Assembly (NCBI GenBank): GCA_943327105.2
Contig: CALPVV020000012.1
Location: 1 to 36,739 of the forward strand
Length of the DNA: 36,739 nt
Origin: Nitrosovibrio sp. Nv4
Lineage (GTDB): Bacteria > Bdellovibrionota > UBA1018 > CAIMNF01
Direction of reading: 5' to 3'
Shown piece after piece: positions 204-24,107 of the stretch. Each line of letters begins with the position of its first letter. The first letter of the stretch is position 1. The position numbers and the translations under genes were made by a program. Under the pieces are notes generated by a model, which did not search any database, was not told the origin of the DNA, and saw only the letters and a program-made list of their open reading frames with translations.

Positions 204-239
204 GGTTTGGACTCTAGCAGGGTTTTGTAAATTGAAAAA

Positions 240-291
240 CCACTTTCAGGAACTGTGGGATTGAGGGGGAGAGGGCAGTTCCTGAAAGTGG
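240..291 (-). terminator. Intrinsic terminator of the 309-929 lipoprotein gene
   Basis: A perfect 16-bp inverted repeat, CCACTTTCAGGAACTG at 240-255 and its complement at 276-291, encloses a 20-base loop. Read on the minus strand it comes 17 bases after the lipoprotein stop and is followed by a run of five T. This is a rho-independent terminator layout, and it separates the lipoprotein gene from the dus gene downstream. Confidence 0.85.
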
Positions 292-308
292 GTATTTGGG
301 ATAACTTT

Positions 309-14040: not shown

Positions 14041-14078
14041 GATAGTTTTTATCTATCAAACGATAGAATCAATCGAAT
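14041..14078 (+). promoter_or_regulatory. OxyR-like operator upstream of ahpC
   Basis: GATAGTTTTTATCTATC (14041-14057) has both half-sites GATAG-N7-CTATC of the OxyR dimer motif exactly. A second GATAG at 14062-14066 is followed by a poor match (CGAAT at 14074-14078). The two start 21 bases apart, against 22 in the E. coli tetramer motif. The block ends on the -35 of the ahpC promoter, where an activator would touch polymerase. Confidence 0.65.
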
Positions 14079-14106
14079 TCATAAATGACTCCATATCGGC
14101 GATACT
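14078..14106 (+). promoter_or_regulatory. Predicted promoter of ahpC-ahpF
   Basis: TTCATA (14078-14083), a 17-base spacer and GATACT (14101-14106) make a weak sigma-70 promoter of the kind that needs an activator. It abuts the OxyR-like site. Confidence 0.5.
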
Positions 14107-14137
14107 GGTTTTAGAAACAAAACCAAAGGAGCAATTT

Positions 14138-14704
14138 ATGAATACTATCATCAACAGCAAGATCCCTGATTTCAAAGTACAAGCTTATGTAAATGGAGAA
14201 TTTAAGACCATCTCTCAAGCGGACCTGAAGGGTAAATGGTCTATCTTCTTCTTCTATCCAGCTGACTTCACATTTGTGTGCCCTACTGAGCTTGGCGATA
14301 TGGCAGACAAATATTCGGAGTTCAAGAAAATGGGAGTAGAAGTTCTTTCAGTCAGCACCGACACTCACTTTGTACATAAGGCATGGCATGATGCTTCAGA
14401 TACCATTAAAAAGATTCAATACCCGATGCTTGCAGACCCAACAGGTCATCTCTCTCGTTCATTCGGAGTTCACATTGAAGAAGAAGGGCTTGCTTACCGC
14501 GGGACCTTCGTTGTGGACCCTGAAGGCAAGATCAAGATTGCGGAAATGCACGATAACGGAATCGGAAGAAATGCTGACGAATTGCTGAGAAAAGTTCAAG
14601 CAGCTCAATTCGTTGCATCGCACCCGGGTGAAGTTTGTCCGGCAAAATGGACTCCAGGGGCAAAAACTCTTAAGCCTGGACTTGATCTAGTGGGTAAAAT
14701 CTAA
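14138..14704 (+). CDS. ahpC: Alkyl hydroperoxide reductase AhpC (2-Cys peroxiredoxin)
   Basis: AhpC reduces hydrogen peroxide, organic peroxides and peroxynitrite in the cytosol. The 188-residue protein matches the AhpC subfamily. The peroxidatic cysteine is C48 in FTFVCPTEL, and the resolving cysteine is C167 in GEVCPAKW. YRGTFVVDPEGKI (about 120-132) is the usual core strand. The ATG at 14138 is chosen because AAAGGAG lies just upstream and the protein then has the standard N-terminus; the frame is open further upstream to 14000 but that stretch covers the promoter. ahpF follows 55 bases later. An OxyR-like site upstream suggests peroxide induction. Confidence 0.97.
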   Translation: MNTIINSKIPDFKVQAYVNGEFKTISQADLKGKWSIFFFYPADFTFVCPTELGDMADKYSEFKKMGVEVLSVSTDTHFVHKAWHDASDTIKKIQYPMLADPTGHLSRSFGVHIEEEGLAYRGTFVVDPEGKIKIAEMHDNGIGRNADELLRKVQAAQFVASHPGEVCPAKWTPGAKTLKPGLDLVGKI

Positions 14705-14759
14705 GTTTTAAACTCAATTTCATTGTTGGTTAATTCATCAATAATAGGAGAGCTCAGTC

Positions 14760-16313
14760 ATGTTAGATCAAGACTTGAAAGAACAATTAAAAAGTTTATT
14801 CGAAAACCTTGAACACACGATTGAGTTCTCTTATTCAAAATGTGAACAAACTGATCAATCCCAATTGATCGAGATGCTTTCTTCAGTTGCTGAAACCAGC
14901 CACAAAATTGTTTTAAAAGAATCTTCAGAGCTTGCTAGTTATCCACAATTTAAGATTTTAAAGGATGGCAGTGAAACCGGAATTCGATTCAATGGCATTC
15001 CCAATGGGCACGAATTCAGTTCACTTATTCTTGCTGTACTGAATGCTGATGGTAAAGGGCGCATGCCAGATGATGGGTTGACTGCCAGAATCAAAAACCT
15101 CAAAGGTCCTATTGAAATTAAAACCTATATTTCCCTGACCTGCGAAAATTGTCCGAATGTGGTTCAGGTATTGAACCAGATGGCCCTCTTGCACCCTGCT
15201 TTCAAGCACACCATGATTGATGGCGCCTATGTCCAAGACGAAATCTCAAGACTTGGTATTCAAGGTGTGCCGAGTGTGATGGTGAATGAAAAATTAATTC
15301 ATTCCGGAAAAATCAGTCTCATTGATTTGATTGCCAAACTTGAATCGGTATTCGGAAGTAATTCAAAAGTTGATCTTGAAAAAGATCTTGGCCAATTTGA
15401 TGTCGTGGTGGTGGGTGGTGGCCCAGCCGGTGCATCGGCCGCAATTTATAGTGCCAGAAAAGGCTTAAAAACAGCAATTATTGCTGAAAAAGTCGGTGGC
15501 CAAGTCCAAGACACCAAAGGAATCGAAAATTTGATTTCTGTTCTTTACACTGAGGGCCCTCAACTGGCGGCACAATTGCATCAACATATTCAAAGTTATC
15601 AAATCAAGTTGCTTGAGCATCGTCGAGTCATAAAAATTTCAAAAGATGCCATTAAGAAAATAGATTTGGAAGGTGGCGAGTTTCTTAATGCAAAATCAGT
15701 CATCATTGCAACTGGTGCGAAATGGAGAGAATTGGGAATCCCCGGTGAAAAAGAATATATCGGCCGTGGCGTTGCTTTTTGTCCTCACTGTGATGGTCCA
15801 TACTATAAAGGTAAAAAAATTGCAGTGATTGGTGGCGGAAATTCAGGTGTTGAAGCTGCGATCGATCTAGCCGGAATCGTTCATGAAGTGGTCTTGATTG
15901 AATTTGGTTCACAAATGAAGGCCGATCGGGTGCTTGTTGAAAAGTTAAACTCGCTACAAAATGCAACCATCATTCTGAATGCTAGATCGTCACAAATTAT
16001 CGGAGATGGCCAAAAAGTAAATGCGCTGGAATATGAAGATCGCACGGATCAATCGATCAAGATGATCAATCTTGATGGAGTATTTGTTCAAATCGGTTTA
16101 TTGCCAAATACTCAATTCCTGAAAGATACGGTTGAACTGACCAAGATGGGTGAAATTGTTGTAGATCAGAAGGGTAGAACTTCTGAACAGGGAATCGATG
16201 CTGCAGGTGATGTGACTACTACACCATACAAGCAGATCATTATCGCAATGGGTGAGGGTGCAAAAGTGGCATTGGCATCTTTTGAAGACTCGATGTACAC
16301 GTCACAGCACTAA
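14760..16313 (+). CDS. ahpF: Alkyl hydroperoxide reductase subunit F (AhpF)
   Basis: AhpF is the flavoprotein that passes electrons from NADH to AhpC. The 517-residue protein has all the expected parts. The N-terminal domain, two thioredoxin-like folds, carries the active-site pair CENC (C128, C131). The FAD-binding motif is [13 protein letters not shown] (about 216-228). The thioredoxin-reductase-like redox pair is CPHC (C341, C344) in [15 protein letters not shown]. The NADH-binding motif [10 protein letters not shown] follows, and [20 protein letters not shown] near the C-terminus completes FAD binding. GGAGAG lies upstream of the ATG. It forms an operon with ahpC. The stop is only four bases from the end of the convergent TPM gene, with no terminator between. 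Confidence 0.97.
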
Positions 16314-16317
16314 TGAG

Positions 16318-16746
16318 TTAATGAGTTTCGGTAATATCGTTCTTTAGCTCATTGGTATCATCTTTTGAACCCGGAAAATGAATTGCCAGTTTTTCCCCGA
16401 GCGCTTGAACTGCATCGATGATGCCGGTCAAAAGGTCTTTATCATGAATGGTTGAACGTACGTGTTGAACCAAGTCGTTCCAGTAGGTTTGTCCCAATTT
16501 CTCATAGATTCCCAAGTCACCATAGAGGGCAAACTTTCGAGCCTTAGGGTTAAAATAAACCAATACCCCATTGCGCTCACGAGTTTCATGCATATTCAGT
16601 TTTGTAAAAATCGCGATTGCAGCTTCAAGTGGCTGGTCGTCTTTTGATTGATAGGTAACATGAACACGAATCTCGCCCGTGGTCTTTGCCTCGGCCTTTG
16701 TGATTTCTTGCATGATGACTTTTTTGTCGCTTGATGTAAGTTTCAT
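16318..16746 (-). CDS. Soluble TPM-domain protein
   Basis: A 142-residue protein consisting of little more than one TPM domain (the TLP18.3/Psb32/MOLO-1 fold). Early KTTGEIRVHVTYQS (about 21-34) and then RNGVLVYFNPKARKFALYGD (about 58-77) are the family's core strands, followed by a helix with YWNDLVQHV. There is no signal peptide or membrane segment, so it is predicted to be cytosolic, unlike its upstream neighbour. Its start directly follows the stop of the membrane-anchored TPM gene (no gap), and both follow lemA. TPM proteins next to LemA are seen in many bacteria and have been linked to envelope stress; the biochemical role is not known. Confidence 0.82.
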   Translation of the reverse strand: MKLTSSDKKVIMQEITKAEAKTTGEIRVHVTYQSKDDQPLEAAIAIFTKLNMHETRERNGVLVYFNPKARKFALYGDLGIYEKLGQTYWNDLVQHVRSTIHDKDLLTGIIDAVQALGEKLAIHFPGSKDDTNELKNDITETH

Positions 16747-17511
16747 TTACCAATCCCCGCTCGCACCACCGCCGCCACTCATACCGCCACCACCGGAAAA
16801 TCCACCACCACTTGAACTTCCGCCTGAACCACCAAACCCACCACCGCCAAAGCCACCCCAGCCACTGTCATTTCGATAATGACGATGAACGCCGGTACTG
16901 CTGATTGTATTTGATTTTAGACGATCGATAAAATTAAGAATCACAAATATGATGACCAAAAAAGCGAGTTGAACCCAGTTGAGTTTTCTCTTGTGAGGTC
17001 TTTGAACGGGTTCTTGGTTGGAGCCATCCGAATGGATGATTTTTTGAATTTCACCAACGGCTTCAATAAAACCCCTGCCATATTGTTTTTCACGAAAAGC
17101 AGGGCCAAGAAAATCAACGATGATTCGCTTGCTTTTTGCATCGGTAAGATAGGGTTCAAGTCCGTAACCTACTTCAAACCGAATTTTTTTTTCAGCAAGA
17201 AAAGCTGCTAGAACGATGCCGTTATTTTTTCCTTTTTGTCCGGGGTTCCAGGCCTTGAATAATCGATTGGTATAATCGACGTGATCTTCGCCATCAAGTG
17301 ACTTGAAGACGGCAATCAGGATCTGATTGCCGAATTTTCGATCTTCTTCAGTAAGTAATGCTGATAGTTGAGAAGCAGATGCCCCAAGGGCACCTGCTTC
17401 ATCAAGTACATAATTAACCGGTGAAGTAGGAATCTCTTTGGCTGCATCGGCGTTCGATACAAAAAAGGAACCAAAGAAAAGAACTGATGCGAAAAGCAGA
17501 TTTTTGAGCAT
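16747..17511 (-). CDS. Membrane-anchored TPM-domain protein (YgcG-like)
   Basis: A 254-residue protein with a signal peptide (about 1-23, ending NADA), an extracytoplasmic TPM domain (about 30-150, with VNYVLDEAGALG at its start, NNGIVLAAFLAEKKIRFEVG in the middle and YGRGFIEAVGEI at its end), one membrane segment (about 178-195, VQLAFLVIIFVILNF) and a C-terminal tail almost entirely Gly and Ser (GGGGFGGSGGSSSGGG) ending GDW. This is the standard YgcG layout, including the glycine-rich end. It lies five bases after lemA and is directly followed by the soluble TPM gene, so the three form one unit. Confidence 0.88.
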   Translation of the reverse strand: MLKNLLFASVLFFGSFFVSNADAAKEIPTSPVNYVLDEAGALGASASQLSALLTEEDRKFGNQILIAVFKSLDGEDHVDYTNRLFKAWNPGQKGKNNGIVLAAFLAEKKIRFEVGYGLEPYLTDAKSKRIIVDFLGPAFREKQYGRGFIEAVGEIQKIIHSDGSNQEPVQRPHKRKLNWVQLAFLVIIFVILNFIDRLKSNTISSTGVHRHYRNDSGWGGFGGGGFGGSGGSSSGGGFSGGGGMSGGGGASGDW

Positions 17512-17516
17512 GAAGC

Positions 17517-18095
17517 TTAGAACTTCACTTCTGGAGCATTTTCAGCGCCAGCTTTTGCCGCGAAGTATGCACGTTCTTTAAAGCCTTTGTTGCCGGCAAC
17601 AATTGATGCAGGAAACTGGCGAATAGCGGTGTTAAAAGCGCGTGCCGTTTCATTGAAGCGTTGGCGTTCAATCGTAATGCGGTTTTCAGTACCTTCAAGC
17701 TGGCTTTGAAGCTCAAGGAAGCTTTTGTCGGCTTTGAGTTCAGGGTATTTCTCGGCGACGACCATCAATCGTGAAAGCGCACTTGAAAGACCGGTTTGAG
17801 CCTGGTCGAATTTTTTAAGATCTTCAGGTGAGTTGACTTTGATTTGACCGACAGAAGCGCGAGCTTGAGTAACCGTCTCAAGAACTTCCGCTTCATGTTT
17901 GGCATAGCCTTTTACTGTATTCACCAGATTTGGAATGAGATCAGCACGACGTTGGTAAACGTTTTCTACTTGTGACCAACTTGAGCTCACGCCTTCATCG
18001 AGGGCGATGAGTGAGTTTCCGGTAGATACATACCAGAATGATCCAAGTAGTATGGTTCCAACAATTGCCAAAACTGCAATGAGACCTTTATTCAT
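17517..18095 (-). CDS. lemA: LemA family protein
   Basis: LemA proteins are anchored by one N-terminal membrane segment and present a helical bundle outside the membrane. This 192-residue protein has the anchor at about 4-22. The signature SWSQVENVYQRRADLIPNLV (39-58) is followed by NTVKGYAKHE. ENRITIERQRFNETARAFN (about 135-153) and IRQFPASIVA complete the family pattern. LemA genes are commonly next to YgcG/TPM genes, as here, and are placed in membrane-stress networks. It overlaps the upstream unknown gene by four bases. The exact role is not established. Confidence 0.95.
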   Translation of the reverse strand: MNKGLIAVLAIVGTILLGSFWYVSTGNSLIALDEGVSSSWSQVENVYQRRADLIPNLVNTVKGYAKHEAEVLETVTQARASVGQIKVNSPEDLKKFDQAQTGLSSALSRLMVVAEKYPELKADKSFLELQSQLEGTENRITIERQRFNETARAFNTAIRQFPASIVAGNKGFKERAYFAAKAGAENAPEVKF

Positions 18096-19189
18096 TTTCT
18101 AGCTTCCTTTTCGTATTGTTCAAGTTGATTGAGATAAACTTTTCTTCCGCCTTGATAAATCAGGCCCCATGAATATTGATCGACGATTCGAATCATTCGA
18201 GGGCCAACAATGAAATTAAGATTCGAGTTTTTCATACATGCTGAAAGCATGATTTTAGGAAGTGAACTCATCGTCCAGCGTTGAATTGCGCGTTTGGGAA
18301 AGAATCGAACCACACTGAAGCCAGTGTCATAGGGGATGATTTTTTCGCCCATCGTCTTCTTGCCTTCGTTTTCTTTTTTCTCGGGAACAATCACGTCGTA
18401 GATAGGGCGCTTAATCAGTGTGTTCGTTGCATAGTCGGTAATGGTTCTTTGAGTAAAGTCTTTCCAGATACCGGCATTGTTGTCGATCAGCTTCTTGACC
18501 ACTTTTCCTGAAACATAACTGCTCACTGTATTTCCGGTGAGATCAGCGGCGAGCAATCGAGCTTTATCTCCCCACTCGGGGTCAGTTGGATTGAAAATTT
18601 GAGGATTCACGGTCACAAAGCCCGCTGTAGTTACGGTAATGCTGGCGATCATTCCGTCTTTGACAAAATTATCACCACGGAGCTGAGCTCCCATTTTATC
18701 GGTACAGCGAAATACATTCGCTTTTTGATATTCTGGTTTGGTCTTATGCTTGAAGTTAAAAGCGCTTTCTTTTTTAATCACATTCTCAACTTCGTTCGGC
18801 GAAAGATCGATCGAATGTTTCGAGTCATAGACGAAGTTTTTAGTAGAAGGGTCATAAAAGAATTCGCCCGATTCCTTGATGATGTAGCCCTCTTTGCTTT
18901 TCGGGTCACTTAGAATGACAAATGAGTTTTCACTTTTAGGCAGGCTTCCCGCATCACCAAAGTGAATGTGATTGTGATCATCCACCCAGTAGGTAAAGCG
19001 TTTACCTTTTTCGGCATCATTGATTAATTTCTTGCTCATCCGCTGCGTGCGAAGAGCGAGTATTTCTTGTTGAACCCCTTCTTCTGCATTTCTGAAAATG
19101 TGTTTCAACAATTGCTCTGGGTCGCACTTTGGGTTTGCAAATGCAAGCGAAGCTGAGAGCAAGGTGATGAAGAACAGGGGCTTGTTCAT
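18092..19189 (-). CDS. Hypothetical exported protein in the hslO-lemA run
   Basis: A 365-residue protein that I do not recognise. It has a signal peptide (MNKPLFFITLLSASLAFA, cut after about residue 18). The mature N-terminus has one Cys (CDPEQLLKHIF), and two more lie at about 162 and 317. The middle is mixed alpha/beta and basic (YWVDDHNHIHFGDAG, EFFYDPSTKNFVYD). A stretch around 195-230 (TVTTAGFVTVNP, AADLTGNTVSSYVSGKVV) is more hydrophobic and might meet a membrane. It overlaps hslO by four bases upstream and lemA by four bases downstream, so it is locked into this operon. Its job is likely related to envelope or redox stress, but that is inference from neighbours only. Confidence 0.75.
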   Translation of the reverse strand: MNKPLFFITLLSASLAFANPKCDPEQLLKHIFRNAEEGVQQEILALRTQRMSKKLINDAEKGKRFTYWVDDHNHIHFGDAGSLPKSENSFVILSDPKSKEGYIIKESGEFFYDPSTKNFVYDSKHSIDLSPNEVENVIKKESAFNFKHKTKPEYQKANVFRCTDKMGAQLRGDNFVKDGMIASITVTTAGFVTVNPQIFNPTDPEWGDKARLLAADLTGNTVSSYVSGKVVKKLIDNNAGIWKDFTQRTITDYATNTLIKRPIYDVIVPEKKENEGKKTMGEKIIPYDTGFSVVRFFPKRAIQRWTMSSLPKIMLSACMKNSNLNFIVGPRMIRIVDQYSWGLIYQGGRKVYLNQLEQYEKEARK

Positions 19190-20079
19190 TTTCTTAGGTT
19201 TTTTCCAATCTCAGCAAGCATGTCTACCGTGAAAGTGTATTTTTCCGAGCAAAAGTCGCAATTGACTTCAACGTCTTTGGCTTCCTCGATCATGGAATCG
19301 ATTTCTTCCGGACCAACAAGTGCAATCGAACGTCTCACTCGTTCAAGCGAGCAAGTGCATTTCACACAAAGCGGTTTTTCTTCAAGTACGCTAAATGCTT
19401 GGTTTTCAAGTAAGAATGAAAGCAGATGAGTCGGTGTTTTTCTTTGTGCAGAGTCAGGGTCCAGATGATTGAATTTTCGCATGTGGTCTTCGATCGTCTG
19501 GAGATCTTCATCAGTAGCGCCTGGAAGTGCCTGAATCAGGAAGCCCTGAGCAAAAGTAACCGTATTGTTGTCGAAGTCGAGTTGAACGTCGATACCAACG
19601 GCTGAGTGCACTTGCTCTGATTGTAACCAGTAATAGGTGAGGTCTTTCGGAAGGTGTCCGGTCAAGAGTGGTACTGTACCGATATAGGGTGTGGATTCTT
19701 CGGTCTTTGTTCTGAGAACTGAAAGTAGACCGATTCCCCATGGGCCAACATTTTTTGCGAGTTGGATATCATCGTAATTTCTTTCGATTACATAACCACG
19801 AACTTCAGCGTTCGCATTCGCATCGAAGATTGCCTGATGACACCATCCAGATGCCTGAATGTTCAAATTGATTTTTTCCGCATCTTTGCAATATGAAGAA
19901 AGCAAGAGACTGGCGATCACGCCCTCAGAGAGTGATTTAGTACCGGCTAAAGCGGTATTGTGTCTCTTGGCTAGGTAATTGGTGATCTCGGTTGCATTCA
20001 CGGCCACAGCACGAATGGTTCCTGAGTTCGAGATGCATTTTACCCATTTGTCTTGTTGTGGTTGAAATTCGATTGCCAT
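19186..20079 (-). CDS. hslO: Redox-activated chaperone Hsp33
   Basis: Hsp33 is a cytosolic holdase that is switched on by oxidation: its four zinc-binding cysteines form disulfides and expose a binding surface. The 297-residue protein has the switch at the C-terminus, CTC (C241, C243) and CDFC (C274, C277), 30 residues apart, which matches CxC...CxxC. An extra Cys at 238 precedes it. The N-terminal core has GTKSLSEGVIASLLLSSYCK (46-65) and GYVIERN, as in the family. GGGA lies before the ATG. It follows the outer-membrane barrel gene by 21 bases and overlaps the next gene by four. Its grouping with GroESL and AhpCF fits a protein-oxidation stress role. Confidence 0.96.
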   Translation of the reverse strand: MAIEFQPQQDKWVKCISNSGTIRAVAVNATEITNYLAKRHNTALAGTKSLSEGVIASLLLSSYCKDAEKINLNIQASGWCHQAIFDANANAEVRGYVIERNYDDIQLAKNVGPWGIGLLSVLRTKTEESTPYIGTVPLLTGHLPKDLTYYWLQSEQVHSAVGIDVQLDFDNNTVTFAQGFLIQALPGATDEDLQTIEDHMRKFNHLDPDSAQRKTPTHLLSFLLENQAFSVLEEKPLCVKCTCSLERVRRSIALVGPEEIDSMIEEAKDVEVNCDFCSEKYTFTVDMLAEIGKNLRK

Positions 20080-20100
20080 GTAATTCCCATTTGCCCGACT

Positions 20101-20802
20101 TTAAAAAGTGACACCTGCATGAATCATAAAGGAAACAAAAGATCCGCCAATGGGACGGGCAGTGCCGTTGGATGACGCTTTCGATGAATCAAACATGTTG
20201 TGATAGTTCAAACGTGTACCAAAAAAGAAGCTTCTATTCAGCAATAGATCGACACCACCACCAAGTTGTAGGCCGAAAAGCAAAGCGCTCAGCTTTGAAT
20301 TGTCGGCAAGGGTTTCAGATGGATTATAGAACCCTAATCCGAGTGATGCAAATGGAACAAGTTGGTCGAAGTAAACCAAGTTCGTGCGAAGGGCCGCATC
20401 AAGATTTACCAGTGAAAAGTTGCCATTAGAGTGGGAACTATAGCCAAAGTCTGACTCAAATGAAAAAAGGTCGCTCACTCCGTAAGTGTAGTGAAGTTGA
20501 GTGCCGAGAGAATTTTCGTATTGGTTAGACAGTTGCCCCATAAGGAAGATCTGCCCTACGCCTATTGAAAGGTTATGAGTACCTGGCGAAAGCGGAGATG
20601 TGCTTTGGTTATAGTGTTTATTCGGCGTGGTCGATTCATTGCGATTATTGGTATCGCGAGATGAACGAGTCATGCGAATGGATTCGCTATCGCTGGTGGA
20701 AAAAGTTGATCTGGAAGTAGGGTATGAAAAAGCAAAAGGTAAGGAAACCGAATACACTCCAGAAATCAAAGCTATGAACGCTAATTGAGTTACACACTTC
20801 AT
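20101..20802 (-). CDS. Predicted outer-membrane beta-barrel protein
   Basis: A 233-residue protein. It has a signal peptide (MKCVTQLAFIALISG, cut near AFS), a Ser/Thr/Asn-rich stretch of about 55 residues that looks disordered, and then alternating strands typical of a small porin-like barrel (LSIGVGQIFLMGQ, LFSFESDFGYSS, VPFASLGLGFYNP, LLFGLQLGGGVDLLL). The C-terminus SFVSFMIHAGVTF ends in Phe, the usual signal for the BAM complex. The start at 20802 gives the signal peptide; the frame is open to 20844. There is no good ribosome site, but TACACT (20809-20814 on plus) lies at the leaderless distance. It is the likely first gene of the hslO-lemA-TPM run. Confidence 0.75.
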   Translation of the reverse strand: MKCVTQLAFIALISGVYSVSLPFAFSYPTSRSTFSTSDSESIRMTRSSRDTNNRNESTTPNKHYNQSTSPLSPGTHNLSIGVGQIFLMGQLSNQYENSLGTQLHYTYGVSDLFSFESDFGYSSHSNGNFSLVNLDAALRTNLVYFDQLVPFASLGLGFYNPSETLADNSKLSALLFGLQLGGGVDLLLNRSFFFGTRLNYHNMFDSSKASSNGTARPIGGSFVSFMIHAGVTF

Positions 20803-20877
20803 CTCTAAAGTGTATTCGGTGACTTGAAAGAAGCAAAGCCTCATTTGAGGTGCGTCAAATTAAACGCGTTCTCAATG

Positions 20878-20980: not shown

Positions 20981-21352
20981 TTACTGATTCATGGTCGGTG
21001 CGTTTACAACAGTTGCAGAAGTTGCCGCTTGTGCTGCTGCTTCTGCTTCGATTGCGCTCAACTCTGATTTCATGTGCTCAGCAATGAAGCCTGAGAAAGA
21101 ACCATCGCCACTGCGAATGATTGCTTTCAACAAGTTTACAGACGGTTGAGTTTTAGCTTTGCGCTCAGATTCATAAAGAAGTTGAGTCAAAGTAATACCT
21201 GTGATGTCGTTCTTGGTTTTGTTATCGATCACGCGAATTTCTTCGCCGTTGCGGATCATTTTTGAGATTTCATCAAGAGTAACGTAGCTAGACTCGTGAG
21301 TGTCATACAACTTACGGTTTTGATAACGCTTAATGATTTTTGCTTCTTTCAT
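20981..21352 (-). CDS. Short PhaR-like polyhydroxyalkanoate regulator
   Basis: A 123-residue protein with the PHB/PHA accumulation regulator DNA-binding domain at its N-terminus: IIKRYQNRKLYDTHESSYVT (6-25), then LDEISKMIRNGEEIRVID and DITGITLTQLLYESE (about 49-63). This domain in PhaR represses phasin and PHA genes and also binds PHA granules. The second PHA-accumulation domain is represented by one short region (LLKAIIRSGDGSFSGFI, about 74-90), and the tail is Ala-rich. PhaR proteins are often longer, so this is a compact form. No phaC or phasin gene is in the window, so its targets are unknown. It has a strong ribosome site (AGGGGGCAG) and shares its promoter and leader pattern with the 11472-11783 gene. 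Confidence 0.88.
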   Translation of the reverse strand: MKEAKIIKRYQNRKLYDTHESSYVTLDEISKMIRNGEEIRVIDNKTKNDITGITLTQLLYESERKAKTQPSVNLLKAIIRSGDGSFSGFIAEHMKSELSAIEAEAAAQAATSATVVNAPTMNQ

Positions 21353-21638: not shown

Positions 21639-23405
21639 ATGCAAGGCTTGGTTCTTAACACATTGGAATTACTAAAGAAAAATAGATCATCGGGGATCCT
21701 GATGTTAGGTCTGTTTTTACTTTCTTCCTGCTCCTCAGTCCCGATGAAAAATAGTTTAGAGATGGACGGCGCAACGAGTAGCGTCGCCAAGAAATCTCAA
21801 GAGGCATGGGAAAAACAAGATCATACAGCTACAGCCGACTTTCATTTTGCTTTAGGGCAGGCTTATTCGACTGAAGGAAAAGTGGATTCTGCAATCGAAG
21901 AGTTCAGGGCTGCATTGGTCTACGACGAAAAATCGGCAATGCTGCACACTAAGCTTGCAGCGGAATACCTGCGCAAAGGTTCGACAAGCCTTGCGATTGA
22001 AGAGTGTTCACGTGCGATAGAAATTGATCCAAAATCAATCGATGCGAGACTGATGCTTGCCGGGATTCACACCATCAACAACGAGCACGATCAGGCGATT
22101 GAAGAGTATGAAGAAGTTCTGAAAAATGATCCGGGCAATGATGAAGCTGCTGTGTTTAAGACTCAGTCATTAGTGGAAAAAAGTAGGCCAGATGAAGCAC
22201 TGGCATTCATTCGCAAATTTGTGAAGACGACTAAAGACTCGGCAGCAGCTTGGTATTACTCGGGAAAGTTGGAGCATTTAAGAGGCAACACCAATGGCGC
22301 GGTTGCGGATTTCAGGAAGGCACTTGAAGTTCGTCCCGGGTTTGTTCAGGCAAGTATGGCTCTTGGAATGGTGCTTGAAAGTGTTGGAAAAACAGATAAG
22401 GCAAAAGAAGTTTACGAAGATCAGCTCGAGGCCAAATATGATTTGAATGTATCAGGCAGATTGGTCGCTTTATACCTGAGAAACAGTCAGTTTGAAGAGG
22501 CTTTGAAAACACTTGAGGTAATGAGTGTACTCGACGCTGAAGATCTGAACACAAAAATGAAGATCGGGCTAATTCAGATGCAGAAGAAAGACTGGATCGG
22601 CGCACAAGCGACGTTTGCTTCGATTCTTGGAAAGGTGCCCGATTCAGACAAAGCCAATTATTATCTTTCAGCGGCATTTGAAGAGCTGGGTAAGCCTGAA
22701 GATGCAGTATCGCACCTGTTGAAGATTTCGCCTGATTCAAAACTATTTGAAGATGCGAACATTCACGTGGCGATGTTTTACAAGAAAAGTGGAAACGTTG
22801 CAAAGGCCCATGAAACCGTGAGTGTCGCCATCATGAAAGCACCTGAAACGGCAGGATTTTATGTGCTCAAAGCGAGTTTTCATGAAGATGAAAAAGATTT
22901 TAAAAAAGCTGAAAATGCTCTAGCCGATGGCTTGAAACTATTTCCTGAAAATGAAAAAATGAGATATTTCTACGGAGCCATTCTCGACAAACAGTCCAAA
23001 CAGGACGAAGCAGTCGCAGAGATGGAAAAGATTCTGAAGTTGAATCCGGAGCACGCCGATGCTCTGAATTATATTGCTTATACTTGGACTTCCCGTGGTG
23101 TCAGATTGACTGATGCTGAAGAAATGCTGAAGCGCGCTTTGAAAGTAAAACCACAAAGCCCTTTCATTCTTGATAGTCTTGGTTGGAACCAGTTTCGACT
23201 TGGTAAGCAAGGTGCGGCGTTGAAATATCTTGAAAAAGCAGTGAATTTGAAAGCGGATGAACAGACGATTCTTGAACATCTGGCAGAAGTTTATTCCAGC
23301 AATCAAATGCCGGAACGCGCTCAAGCCATGAGAATGAAAATCCGTAAATTGAATCCTGATGTTGAAGAAACATCAATTCGAGCTCCCGCTTCTGTCGAAC
23401 CGTGA
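21639..23405 (+). CDS. TPR-repeat lipoprotein
   Basis: A 588-residue lipoprotein built of about a dozen tetratricopeptide repeats. The signal peptide ends in the lipobox LSSC with the lipidated Cys at 31. TPR units are clear, for example HFALGQAYSTEGKVDSAIEE (about 66-85), TKLAAEYLRKGSTSLAIEEC and DALNYIAYTWTSRGVRLTDA. These are protein-binding scaffolds; the location is periplasmic, attached to a membrane. The ATG at 21639 has GAGGGGGG upstream. An in-frame ATG at 21702 would also leave a lipobox but has no ribosome site. A LolB-like lipoprotein gene follows 12 bases later. TPR lipoprotein genes next to lolB are common in other proteobacteria, which supports an outer-membrane lipoprotein role. 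Confidence 0.88.
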   Translation: MQGLVLNTLELLKKNRSSGILMLGLFLLSSCSSVPMKNSLEMDGATSSVAKKSQEAWEKQDHTATADFHFALGQAYSTEGKVDSAIEEFRAALVYDEKSAMLHTKLAAEYLRKGSTSLAIEECSRAIEIDPKSIDARLMLAGIHTINNEHDQAIEEYEEVLKNDPGNDEAAVFKTQSLVEKSRPDEALAFIRKFVKTTKDSAAAWYYSGKLEHLRGNTNGAVADFRKALEVRPGFVQASMALGMVLESVGKTDKAKEVYEDQLEAKYDLNVSGRLVALYLRNSQFEEALKTLEVMSVLDAEDLNTKMKIGLIQMQKKDWIGAQATFASILGKVPDSDKANYYLSAAFEELGKPEDAVSHLLKISPDSKLFEDANIHVAMFYKKSGNVAKAHETVSVAIMKAPETAGFYVLKASFHEDEKDFKKAENALADGLKLFPENEKMRYFYGAILDKQSKQDEAVAEMEKILKLNPEHADALNYIAYTWTSRGVRLTDAEEMLKRALKVKPQSPFILDSLGWNQFRLGKQGAALKYLEKAVNLKADEQTILEHLAEVYSSNQMPERAQAMRMKIRKLNPDVEETSIRAPASVEP

Positions 23406-23417
23406 TAAAGTTGGTTC

Positions 23418-24107
23418 ATGCAGAACCTGAAATCGTATCTTCCTGTTGCGCTGAGTTTTTTGCTCTATTCATGCAGCACGATGCCCAAAGCCAGTCATGA
23501 GGCATTTTCAACTGATGAAGCCAGAAACTTTCTTCAAACCTATTGTTCTTCGATCGGTGACTCTGAAAAAAAAATGCAAGAAATGAACGGCGAGATATTG
23601 GTGCGTTCCAGTACTCGAGAGTTCAAAGGTCAGTATCCAGCCAGTATTCACTTCTCAAAAGAGGGTTCATTTAGTCTTGAGGTCACGAATGTGATTGGCG
23701 GAACGATTGCAATGCTCAAGGGTGGGCATGAAACAGTTGATGTGATTTCCTCTTCCAAGCCTCAATACAATCAAAAATCGGTTAAACAGTATATGGGCTT
23801 ACCGGTAAAGTTGCTTGCCCAGTTGCTTCATGGAGATTTGCCGTGCCCTTCCATTTCCAATCACCGTACCGAAGGTGAGAAAATTGTGATCAGTGACGGA
23901 CGTTTGGAATGGCAAGTGGAGCGCTCAGATCGGGATTCCGGCGCGGTTCCCTACCGGGCGCGCATTTATGAAGGATCAAAGTTAAAAATCGACCTCATTA
24001 TTGAGCGCTGGAACGCAAAGGAAGCTTATGCGGAAAAGGTGAGGGTTGCGACTCCCGAGGGAGACCTCAAATGGACCTGGCGCTCACGAAATTGGTTTCC
24101 TCATTAG
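23418..24107 (+). CDS. LolB-like outer-membrane lipoprotein
   Basis: A 229-residue lipoprotein with the lipobox LYSC (Cys 19). The mature chain has the general pattern of LolB, the receptor that inserts lipoproteins into the outer membrane: [10 protein letters not shown] opens the half-barrel, [16 protein letters not shown] (about 89-104) matches the block TNPLG in LolB, and [19 protein letters not shown] (about 124-142) matches the GLP...L...L.G segment. The remainder is beta-rich. The match is by pattern, not by search, and a DUF4292-type protein is the main alternative. It lies after the TPR lipoprotein gene. It has no ribosome site, so it may depend on coupling or on a weak -10 (GATAAA, 23404-23409). 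Confidence 0.55.

Follow-up and report, generated by a model that had tools for sequence, protein, structure and literature searches.

A hairpin enclosing the start codon of an outer-membrane barrel gene (omp) is a more unusual feature of this locus than the gene run headed by omp, and is newly described here. Our overall reading, which we hold to be evenly poised between right and wrong, is that a family-specific operon was built from older pieces and that a genus-specific start-codon hairpin limits omp, with hslO coupled to it. In the literature, we found no account of any hslO-lemA link or of a start-codon hairpin at omp. All coordinates refer to the window, i.e. the whole stretch of 36,739 nucleotides that was analysed (Table 1).

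Table 1. Features of the omp-hslO-lemA locus and its surroundings
Feature	Position	Strand	Description
ahpC-ahpF	14138..16313	+	convergent; at the hslO site only in the window's genome; outside the unit
TPM2	16318..16746	-	soluble TPM domain; no signal peptide, no membrane segment
TPM1	16747..17511	-	signal peptide, TPM domain, membrane segment ~177-195, Gly-rich tail
lemA	17517..18095	-	LemA family; one N-terminal membrane segment
unk (exported protein)	18092..19189	-	365 aa; invariant Cys22, Cys162, Cys318
hslO	19186..20079	-	Hsp33 redox chaperone; CxC (241, 243), CxxC (274, 277)
omp	20101..20802	-	exported 8-stranded outer-membrane beta-barrel; head of the run
start-codon hairpin	20747..20820	-	arm 1 ~20801-20820; arm 2 ~20747-20766; omp ATG (20800-20802) apical
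promoter-like stretch	20809..20836	-	TTGCTT (20831-20836), spacer 16-17, TACACT (20809-20814); weak consensus match
invariant block CTTTGCTTCTTT	20827..20838	-	directly upstream of the hairpin; 12/12 genus genomes
phaR homologue	20981..21352	-	upstream codirectional neighbour of omp across the order

Gene layout and proteins

The original prediction described a tightly spaced minus-strand run of six genes, omp-hslO-unk-lemA-TPM1-TPM2, and its coordinates, strands and spacing are all borne out. omp and hslO are separated by 21 bases, hslO and unk as well as unk and lemA overlap by four bases each, lemA and TPM1 lie five bases apart, and TPM1 and TPM2 abut with a gap of 0. From these overlaps and gaps and from the conserved order, we infer a single transcript running from omp to TPM2; phaR, upstream of omp, is a possible source of read-through.

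HslO matches the Pfam HSP33 family above its cut-off (234 bits), possesses the four-cysteine zinc centre, with CxC and CxxC invariant in 8/8 sequences, and matches known Hsp33 structures (PDB 1vzy, 1i7f) over its full length; its NCBIfam equivalog score of 224.5 is slightly below the cut-off of 244. Compared with known Hsp33, the protein is ordinary, and only its genomic company is unusual. LemA exceeds the cut-off of PF04011 (200 bits), carries the N-terminal membrane anchor and matches structure 2etd, and both TPM proteins exceed that of TPM_phosphatase (PF04536), with domain scores of 100 bits for TPM1 and 58 bits for TPM2. An anchored LemA beside a TPM protein with signal peptide, membrane segment and Gly-rich tail is also what known LemA-TPM neighbourhoods with YgcG/Psb32-type TPM proteins contain; here, by contrast, the pair stands behind hslO (behind unk in two genomes), and the cassette includes another TPM protein, which is soluble.

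The omp product, whose orthologue adjoins phaR across the order, is predicted to form an 8-stranded barrel, with high confidence from about residue 70 onwards (AlphaFold2 mean pLDDT 78.5). OmpA, OmpW and NspA are among the best PDB matches and share this fold, but by sequence the protein stays below the gathering cut-off of Pfam OMP_b-brl (22.8 versus 28.7 bits), and it lacks a periplasmic OmpA domain. For the unk protein, neither Pfam nor NCBIfam yields a family above cut-off, its residues Cys22, Cys162 and Cys318 are invariant among 15 aligned sequences, and its AlphaFold2 model is poor (mean pLDDT 46.8; 6 sequences). Its structural matches to GPCRs and PI3K coiled coils are within noise, as is a likeness of residues 48-152 to phosphohistidine phosphatases (Z 4.5-4.8).

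Conservation of the hslO-lemA linkage

The proposed conservation of hslO-lemA neighbour order in relatives holds within the family and fails beyond it. hslO is followed by lemA-TPM-TPM in five of 13 family genomes; since these represent both genera, the linkage predates the window's genome. The tight order omp-hslO-(unk)-lemA-TPM1-TPM2 is also found in G003, G005, G010 and G012, where lemA starts -34 to +45 bases from the preceding gene, and this recurrence indicates that the run is more than chance. The link is missing in eight of the 13 family genomes, and G008 and G011 keep the cassette apart from hslO.

In other families of the order or class, the hslO-lemA-TPM link is absent from all 28 hslO loci, and no lemA was found within 2 kb of hslO at the 27 loci from other phyla, so that we reject it as a general bacterial link. 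One locus of another phylum (L230) has a weak lemA match about 9 kb from hslO on the opposite strand. The phylum sample comprised 240 genomes, whose rows were compared by eye among the matches listed. In such a by-eye comparison, no order or class genome among the 26 with both genes places them less than 10 kb apart on a single contig, and the closest pair is separated by 36 kb (G025); in the genus g73, again by eye among the matches listed, lemA lies 22-66 kb from hslO, non-adjacent, in at least eight genomes. Judged by gene order, the hslO-lemA-TPM linkage is a local, lineage-restricted arrangement.

The facing ahpCF genes had been thought to strengthen a stress theme, an idea that we reject, as they are a neighbour of hslO in the window's genome only. 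Among 40 hslO loci from relatives, of which some are truncated by contig edges, neither ahpC nor ahpF was found, and full-length AhpF occurs elsewhere in 4/12 relatives, on other contigs or 69 kb off. Moreover, the two units converge, with ahpCF stopping at 16313, four bases before the end of TPM2, and therefore have no promoter in common.

Origin of the locus

Across the order, the ancestral block consists of groEL-hslO facing a convergent phaR-omp pair. In all 13 family genomes, hslO and omp share a strand, and they lie on opposite strands at all 21 loci outside the family at which both genes were detected. For groEL the pattern is the reverse: it shares the hslO strand at each of the 20 loci outside the family that yielded it, and is opposite hslO in each of the 11 family relatives that did so. 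As this comparison of gene orientation and order shows, hslO was inverted in the family ancestor and now reads with omp, close behind it, and a self-contained lemA-TPM-TPM cassette came to sit behind hslO. The simplest history would be one cassette gain and about three losses. In the species tree, G012 is placed outside the window's genus; the main-type LemAs of the family without that of G012 form one clade (support 0.977), and the G012 LemA does not group with the other family LemAs (support 0.08). Because it falls apart from the others, a second cassette insertion is possible. In places, the LemA tree conflicts with that of TPM1, and in G004 the TPM1-lemA order and the placement of TPM1 differ.

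Two other accounts of the gene grouping have to be weighed. The cassette may simply be a passenger without a functional tie to Hsp33 or the barrel, having entered a site behind hslO that tolerates insertion and where the operon promoter suffices. We regard this as quite possible, if somewhat short of even: outside the family, lemA-TPM-TPM travels alone and occupies numerous unrelated positions across the order, within the family it is missing at hslO in about three lineages, with two genomes keeping it elsewhere, and the hslO-groEL interval takes other genes in single genomes, namely a GNAT acetyltransferase, a desaturase, a methyltransferase or ahpCF. However, the tight gaps have been retained across two genera at 55% hslO identity. 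The original prediction instead saw one stress system, in which oxidation-sensing Hsp33, LemA-TPM and the barrel place the envelope under the control of cytosolic oxidation. While the common strand, the overlaps and the family-level conservation would suit such a system, the link does not occur outside the family, many family genomes lack it as well, and ahpCF adjoins hslO in one genome only; we find the idea not borne out and consider it improbable.

A hairpin around the omp start codon

The hairpin has a stem of 14-20 bp that encloses the omp start codon, with its second arm encoded in the signal-peptide codons of omp. A model of it finds one place per genome in all 12 genus genomes (E 1e-19 to 1e-27; a second row per genome reflects the palindrome being read on the opposite strand) and none in 46 genomes outside the genus at E<0.01, and neither the exact pattern nor the model reveals further copies in the window's own genome. 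It folds in 12/12 genus genomes (z -3.5 to -6.6), with -31.6 to -50 kcal/mol including flanks. Covariation amounts to 11 double-change cells compared to 3.8 after shuffling (0/500), and at the three inner pairs, pairing is seen in 19 of 24 cells, over eight lineages, compared to 12.9 under row permutation (0/5000); the outer pairs show none (P 0.19). As the 15-pair core hardly varies, the covariation rests on three to four inner pairs. The three fourfold sites within the hairpin are conserved in 12, 11 and 12 of 12 genomes; of the 26 remaining fourfold columns in omp, not one is conserved in as many as 11 (Fisher p 0.0003).

No curated Rfam covariance model matches the hairpin, cis-regulatory and thermometer families included, the sole match being chance (18.2 of 70 bits), and CTTTGCTTCTTT has no constant long-range partner. 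In the window, neither omp nor hslO is preceded by a motif resembling a Shine-Dalgarno sequence (SD). Several other genes of the window lack one as well, so that this lack is not special by itself. Outside the genus, with starts chosen by rule and mononucleotide shuffles, a strong fold near the chosen omp start was found at two of 22 loci (L044/G016, L055/G026), with unrelated sequences, and AAGGA, AGGAG or GGAGG lies within about 16 bases of the start at 13 of these 22 loci, as counted by eye.

The conserved element might also act as DNA: a promoter would produce a leaderless omp mRNA, and a repressor would bind two inverted operator copies, one of which overlaps this promoter. We lean against this possibility without dismissing it. 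Transcription would then start at the omp ATG, and arm 1 would be absent from the RNA. This would agree with the invariance of CTTTGCTTCTTT and arm 1, with the TTGCTT-TACACT spacer of 16 bases in 9/12 and 17 in 3/12 genomes, and with an ATG that lies exactly 6 nt past TACACT in 12/12 and has no SD. However, both hexamers are poor sigma-70 matches that the promoter scan did not list, the arm-to-arm span varies between 73 and 97 bases without helical phase, and the lineage-wise covariation of the inner pairs would not be required of two operator copies.

We read the hairpin, from its sequence conservation and covariation, as a putative cis-regulatory RNA element gating omp and, via coupling, hslO. 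A bolder proposal, which we consider rather unlikely, is that it represents a new class of cis-acting hairpins, replacing the omp SD in one bacterial genus, whose opening would via coupling switch on Hsp33 and, where present, LemA-TPM.

Proposed mechanism and implications

mRNA structures that occlude the start codon are known from rpoH and from ROSE and FourU thermosensors. The omp hairpin resembles these in that leader and early codons pair around the AUG, but it is very stable as folded, involves no SD and has no Rfam match. Its computed stability at 37 °C argues against simple thermometer-type melting.

In our preferred reading, the hairpin at the head of omp would restrict omp translation for as long as it stays closed; a protein, a helicase or changed conditions would open it. 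hslO, which stands close behind and lacks a clear ribosome site, would be coupled to omp translation. Hsp33 holds oxidised proteins in the cytosol, while a role at the inner membrane, in the assembly or repair of membrane complexes, is probable for LemA and the membrane-bound TPM1 and has been proposed for TPM/Psb32 proteins; PMC11237479 treats TPM as chaperone-like in membrane-complex assembly. Hsp33 and LemA-TPM would then share a transcript and an occasion, i.e. stress, rather than a demonstrated pathway.

The gene run is an example of the local re-wiring of conserved chaperone and envelope blocks, and of how far an operon from a single genome can be trusted as evidence for function. If RNA control holds true, the hairpin would be a compact, single-copy, genus-wide element that ties Hsp33 dosage to the translation of an outer-membrane protein, and thereby a concrete tie between envelope and cytosol, by another route than the one from oxidation to the envelope.

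The six-gene run and its proteins

The run put forward in the original prediction is present with the same order and spacings (21, -4, -4, 5 and 0 bases from omp to TPM2), and Pfam confirms the assignment of Hsp33, LemA and both TPM proteins. The window is an entire contig, from a source genome of 2.3 Mb that is 92% complete. In the Pfam search of its protein, the omp barrel lies below the cut-off; an AlphaFold2 model from a 20-sequence input has eight strands at high confidence, and its top PDB matches include OmpA, OmpW and NspA. Hsp33 retains its CxC and CxxC cysteines, which are invariant in all eight aligned relatives.

The exported protein encoded by the third gene constitutes a separate small family. 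Its gene adjoins hslO in six genomes of the family (the window's genome, G000, and G001, G004, G005, G007 and G009), and distant homologues (21-28% identity) occur at other sites in seven genomes of the order. Cys 22, 162 and 318 are invariant in 15 sequences, as are a few further residues including E106, G108, R248, R334 and R349. Together with the signal peptide, the invariant cysteines suggest a periplasmic protein with a disulphide; its structure model was too poor for use.

Features of the window
Feature	Position	Strand	Remark
omp	20101-20802	minus	first of six genes
hslO	19186-20079	minus	second of six; Pfam Hsp33
unknown exported gene	18092-19189	minus	third of six
lemA	17517-18095	minus	fourth of six; Pfam LemA
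TPM1	16747-17511	minus	fifth of six; Pfam TPM
TPM2	16318-16746	minus	sixth of six; Pfam TPM
omp hairpin, arm 1	about 20801-20820		upstream of omp
omp hairpin, arm 2	about 20747-20766		in signal-peptide codons
TPR protein and LolB-like lipoprotein	21639-24107		divergent from phaR-omp across the order
ahpC hairpin	14072-14148	plus	imperfect; second arm carries ahpC Shine-Dalgarno sequence and start codon
inverted repeat	235-296		21-nt arms, 90% complementary; 20-nt loop

Reach of the linkage

The hslO-lemA-TPM linkage holds as a putative family-level operon, but it is absent at hslO beyond the family: across the order and class, 28 hslO loci in other families (some of which end with their contig) show neither lemA nor TPM, and in 27 loci from other phyla lemA never lies within 2 kb of hslO. 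Likewise, 26 genomes of the order and class carry both hslO and lemA, and in none do the two share a contig at a distance of 10 kb or less. lemA-TPM-TPM is frequent in the order at many sites, independently of hslO. Among the matches listed for the phylum sample, at least eight genomes of genus g73 (e.g. G144, G125, G168) carry lemA 22-66 kb from hslO, a loose regional linkage.

The original prediction had also held that the facing ahpCF strengthens a stress theme. This argument falls, because ahpCF stands beside hslO in the window only (0/40 relatives' loci); full-length AhpF is found at other places in four of the 12 family relatives. What stands is the putative family-level operon. The ahpC hairpin folds at -25.4 kcal/mol (z -3.8, mononucleotide shuffles); the z values of -1.7 and -2.2 in two relatives in which a start was found do not demonstrate conservation.

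In the literature, TPM domains are discussed alongside PspA as chaperone-like aids in membrane-complex assembly, the photosystem example being Psb32/TLP18.3 (PMC11237479), and lemA and a TPM gene are both up in a Flavobacterium columnare sppA mutant, together with membrane and oxidative-stress genes (PMC13236525). The open-licence literature yielded no report of an hslO-lemA linkage or of the omp start-codon hairpin described below.

An old and a young layer

The neighbourhood consists of two layers, an old order-wide block and a young part behind hslO. In other families, omp and hslO are encoded on opposite strands in all 21 loci where both were found, and each of the 20 groEL genes located in other-family loci shares the strand of hslO. 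In the window's family, hslO is on the omp strand in 13/13 genomes, and groEL is opposite hslO in all 11 relatives where it was found. By this contrast, hslO was inverted in the ancestor of the family and became part of the omp unit. The gap between omp and the hslO start is 8-21 bases in 12 of the 13 genomes and 68 bases in G003, where the start is uncertain. The order-wide block extends with phaR, a TPR protein, a LolB-like lipoprotein (23.8 bits in the window, barely above the cut-off of 23.7) and oppDF; the TPR/LolB-like and phaR-omp genes form an old outer-membrane-themed block. A second instance of hslO-groEL proximity (about 2 kb or less, same strand) is seen in four gammaproteobacterial loci (L241, L242, L244, L245), one titled Coxiellaceae.

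In the young layer, lemA-TPM1-TPM2 stands behind hslO in G000, G003, G005, G010 and G012, the last a member of the sister genus with an hslO that is 55% identical. Neither this cassette nor the exported-protein gene was found behind hslO in G002, G006, G008 and G011; the G006 contig stops about 210 bases past hslO, and its genome has no LemA, TPM or exported-protein match anywhere. G008 and G011 carry the same cassette at other sites, with lemA first and a divergent neighbour before it, and their LemAs fall in the family clade. A single gain followed by about three losses accounts most simply for this distribution, but two separate insertions may also do so, since the LemA of G012 is placed without support (0.08). 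A tandem pair of divergent LemA genes, lacking TPM, occurs in G002 (G002:C5:141546-142541); this divergent LemA type is also present in G001, G007, G009 and G010.

A hairpin around the omp start codon

The most unusual feature is a hairpin at the head of the run. A DNA alignment of the genus has a near-invariant stretch upstream of omp, composed of CTTTGCTTCTTT, a few variable bases, CACCGAATACACT, a mostly conserved CTAA and the start codon, and the CACCGAATACACT part recurs inverted within the signal-peptide codons. Folding gives a stem around the start codon in all 12 genus genomes, of 14 to 20 pairs except in G010 (13 pairs, one mismatch beyond), with z scores between -3.5 and -6.6 relative to dinucleotide-shuffled sequences. 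A covariance model from the 12 finds one place per genus genome (E 1e-19 to 1e-27) and nothing at E below 0.01 in 46 other genomes; Rfam gave no match resembling the hairpin. Near the omp start of locus L044 (G016), a different strong hairpin of unrelated sequence occurs (AAAAGGCCGTATT / GATACGGCCTTTT, z -5.5).

Two tests indicate that nucleotides are kept here, not protein alone: the fourfold sites of arm 2 are frozen, and the inner pairs covary. Only the three fourfold-degenerate omp positions in arm 2 are conserved in at least 11 of the 12 genomes, a level reached by none of the other 26 (Fisher p 0.0003). With all 12 sequences, 11 double-change cells compare with 3.8 after shuffling (0/500). 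With eight sequences, one per near-identical lineage, 19 of 24 cells at the three inner-end pairs can pair, compared with 12.9 when arms are swapped between lineages, and 0/5000 permutations reach 19. As there is little variation in the 15-pair core and no covariation signal in the outer pairs (P 0.19), the case for pairing rests on the inner pairs, the folds and the frozen synonymous sites.

The weak point of reading the element as an RNA stem is that the arm 1 region also looks like a promoter, with TTGCTT, 16 or 17 bases, TACACT and exactly 6 bases to the ATG in 12/12 genomes; should transcription begin at the ATG, the message would lack arm 1. These hexamers fit sigma-70 poorly and are absent from the list of a consensus scan. 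The arm-to-arm distance, which ranges between 73 and 97 bases and keeps no helical phase, speaks against two looped operators.

If an RNA stem forms, a start codon at the tip of this stable stem would see little use as long as the stem stays closed. omp has no Shine-Dalgarno-like motif in the window, nor by eye in the genus relatives; among 22 orthologues from beyond the genus, 13 show such a motif by eye. Since hslO starts close behind omp, and in the window no clear ribosome site precedes it, hslO is likely to depend on the translation of omp. If the two are coupled in this way, Hsp33 dosage would follow omp translation.
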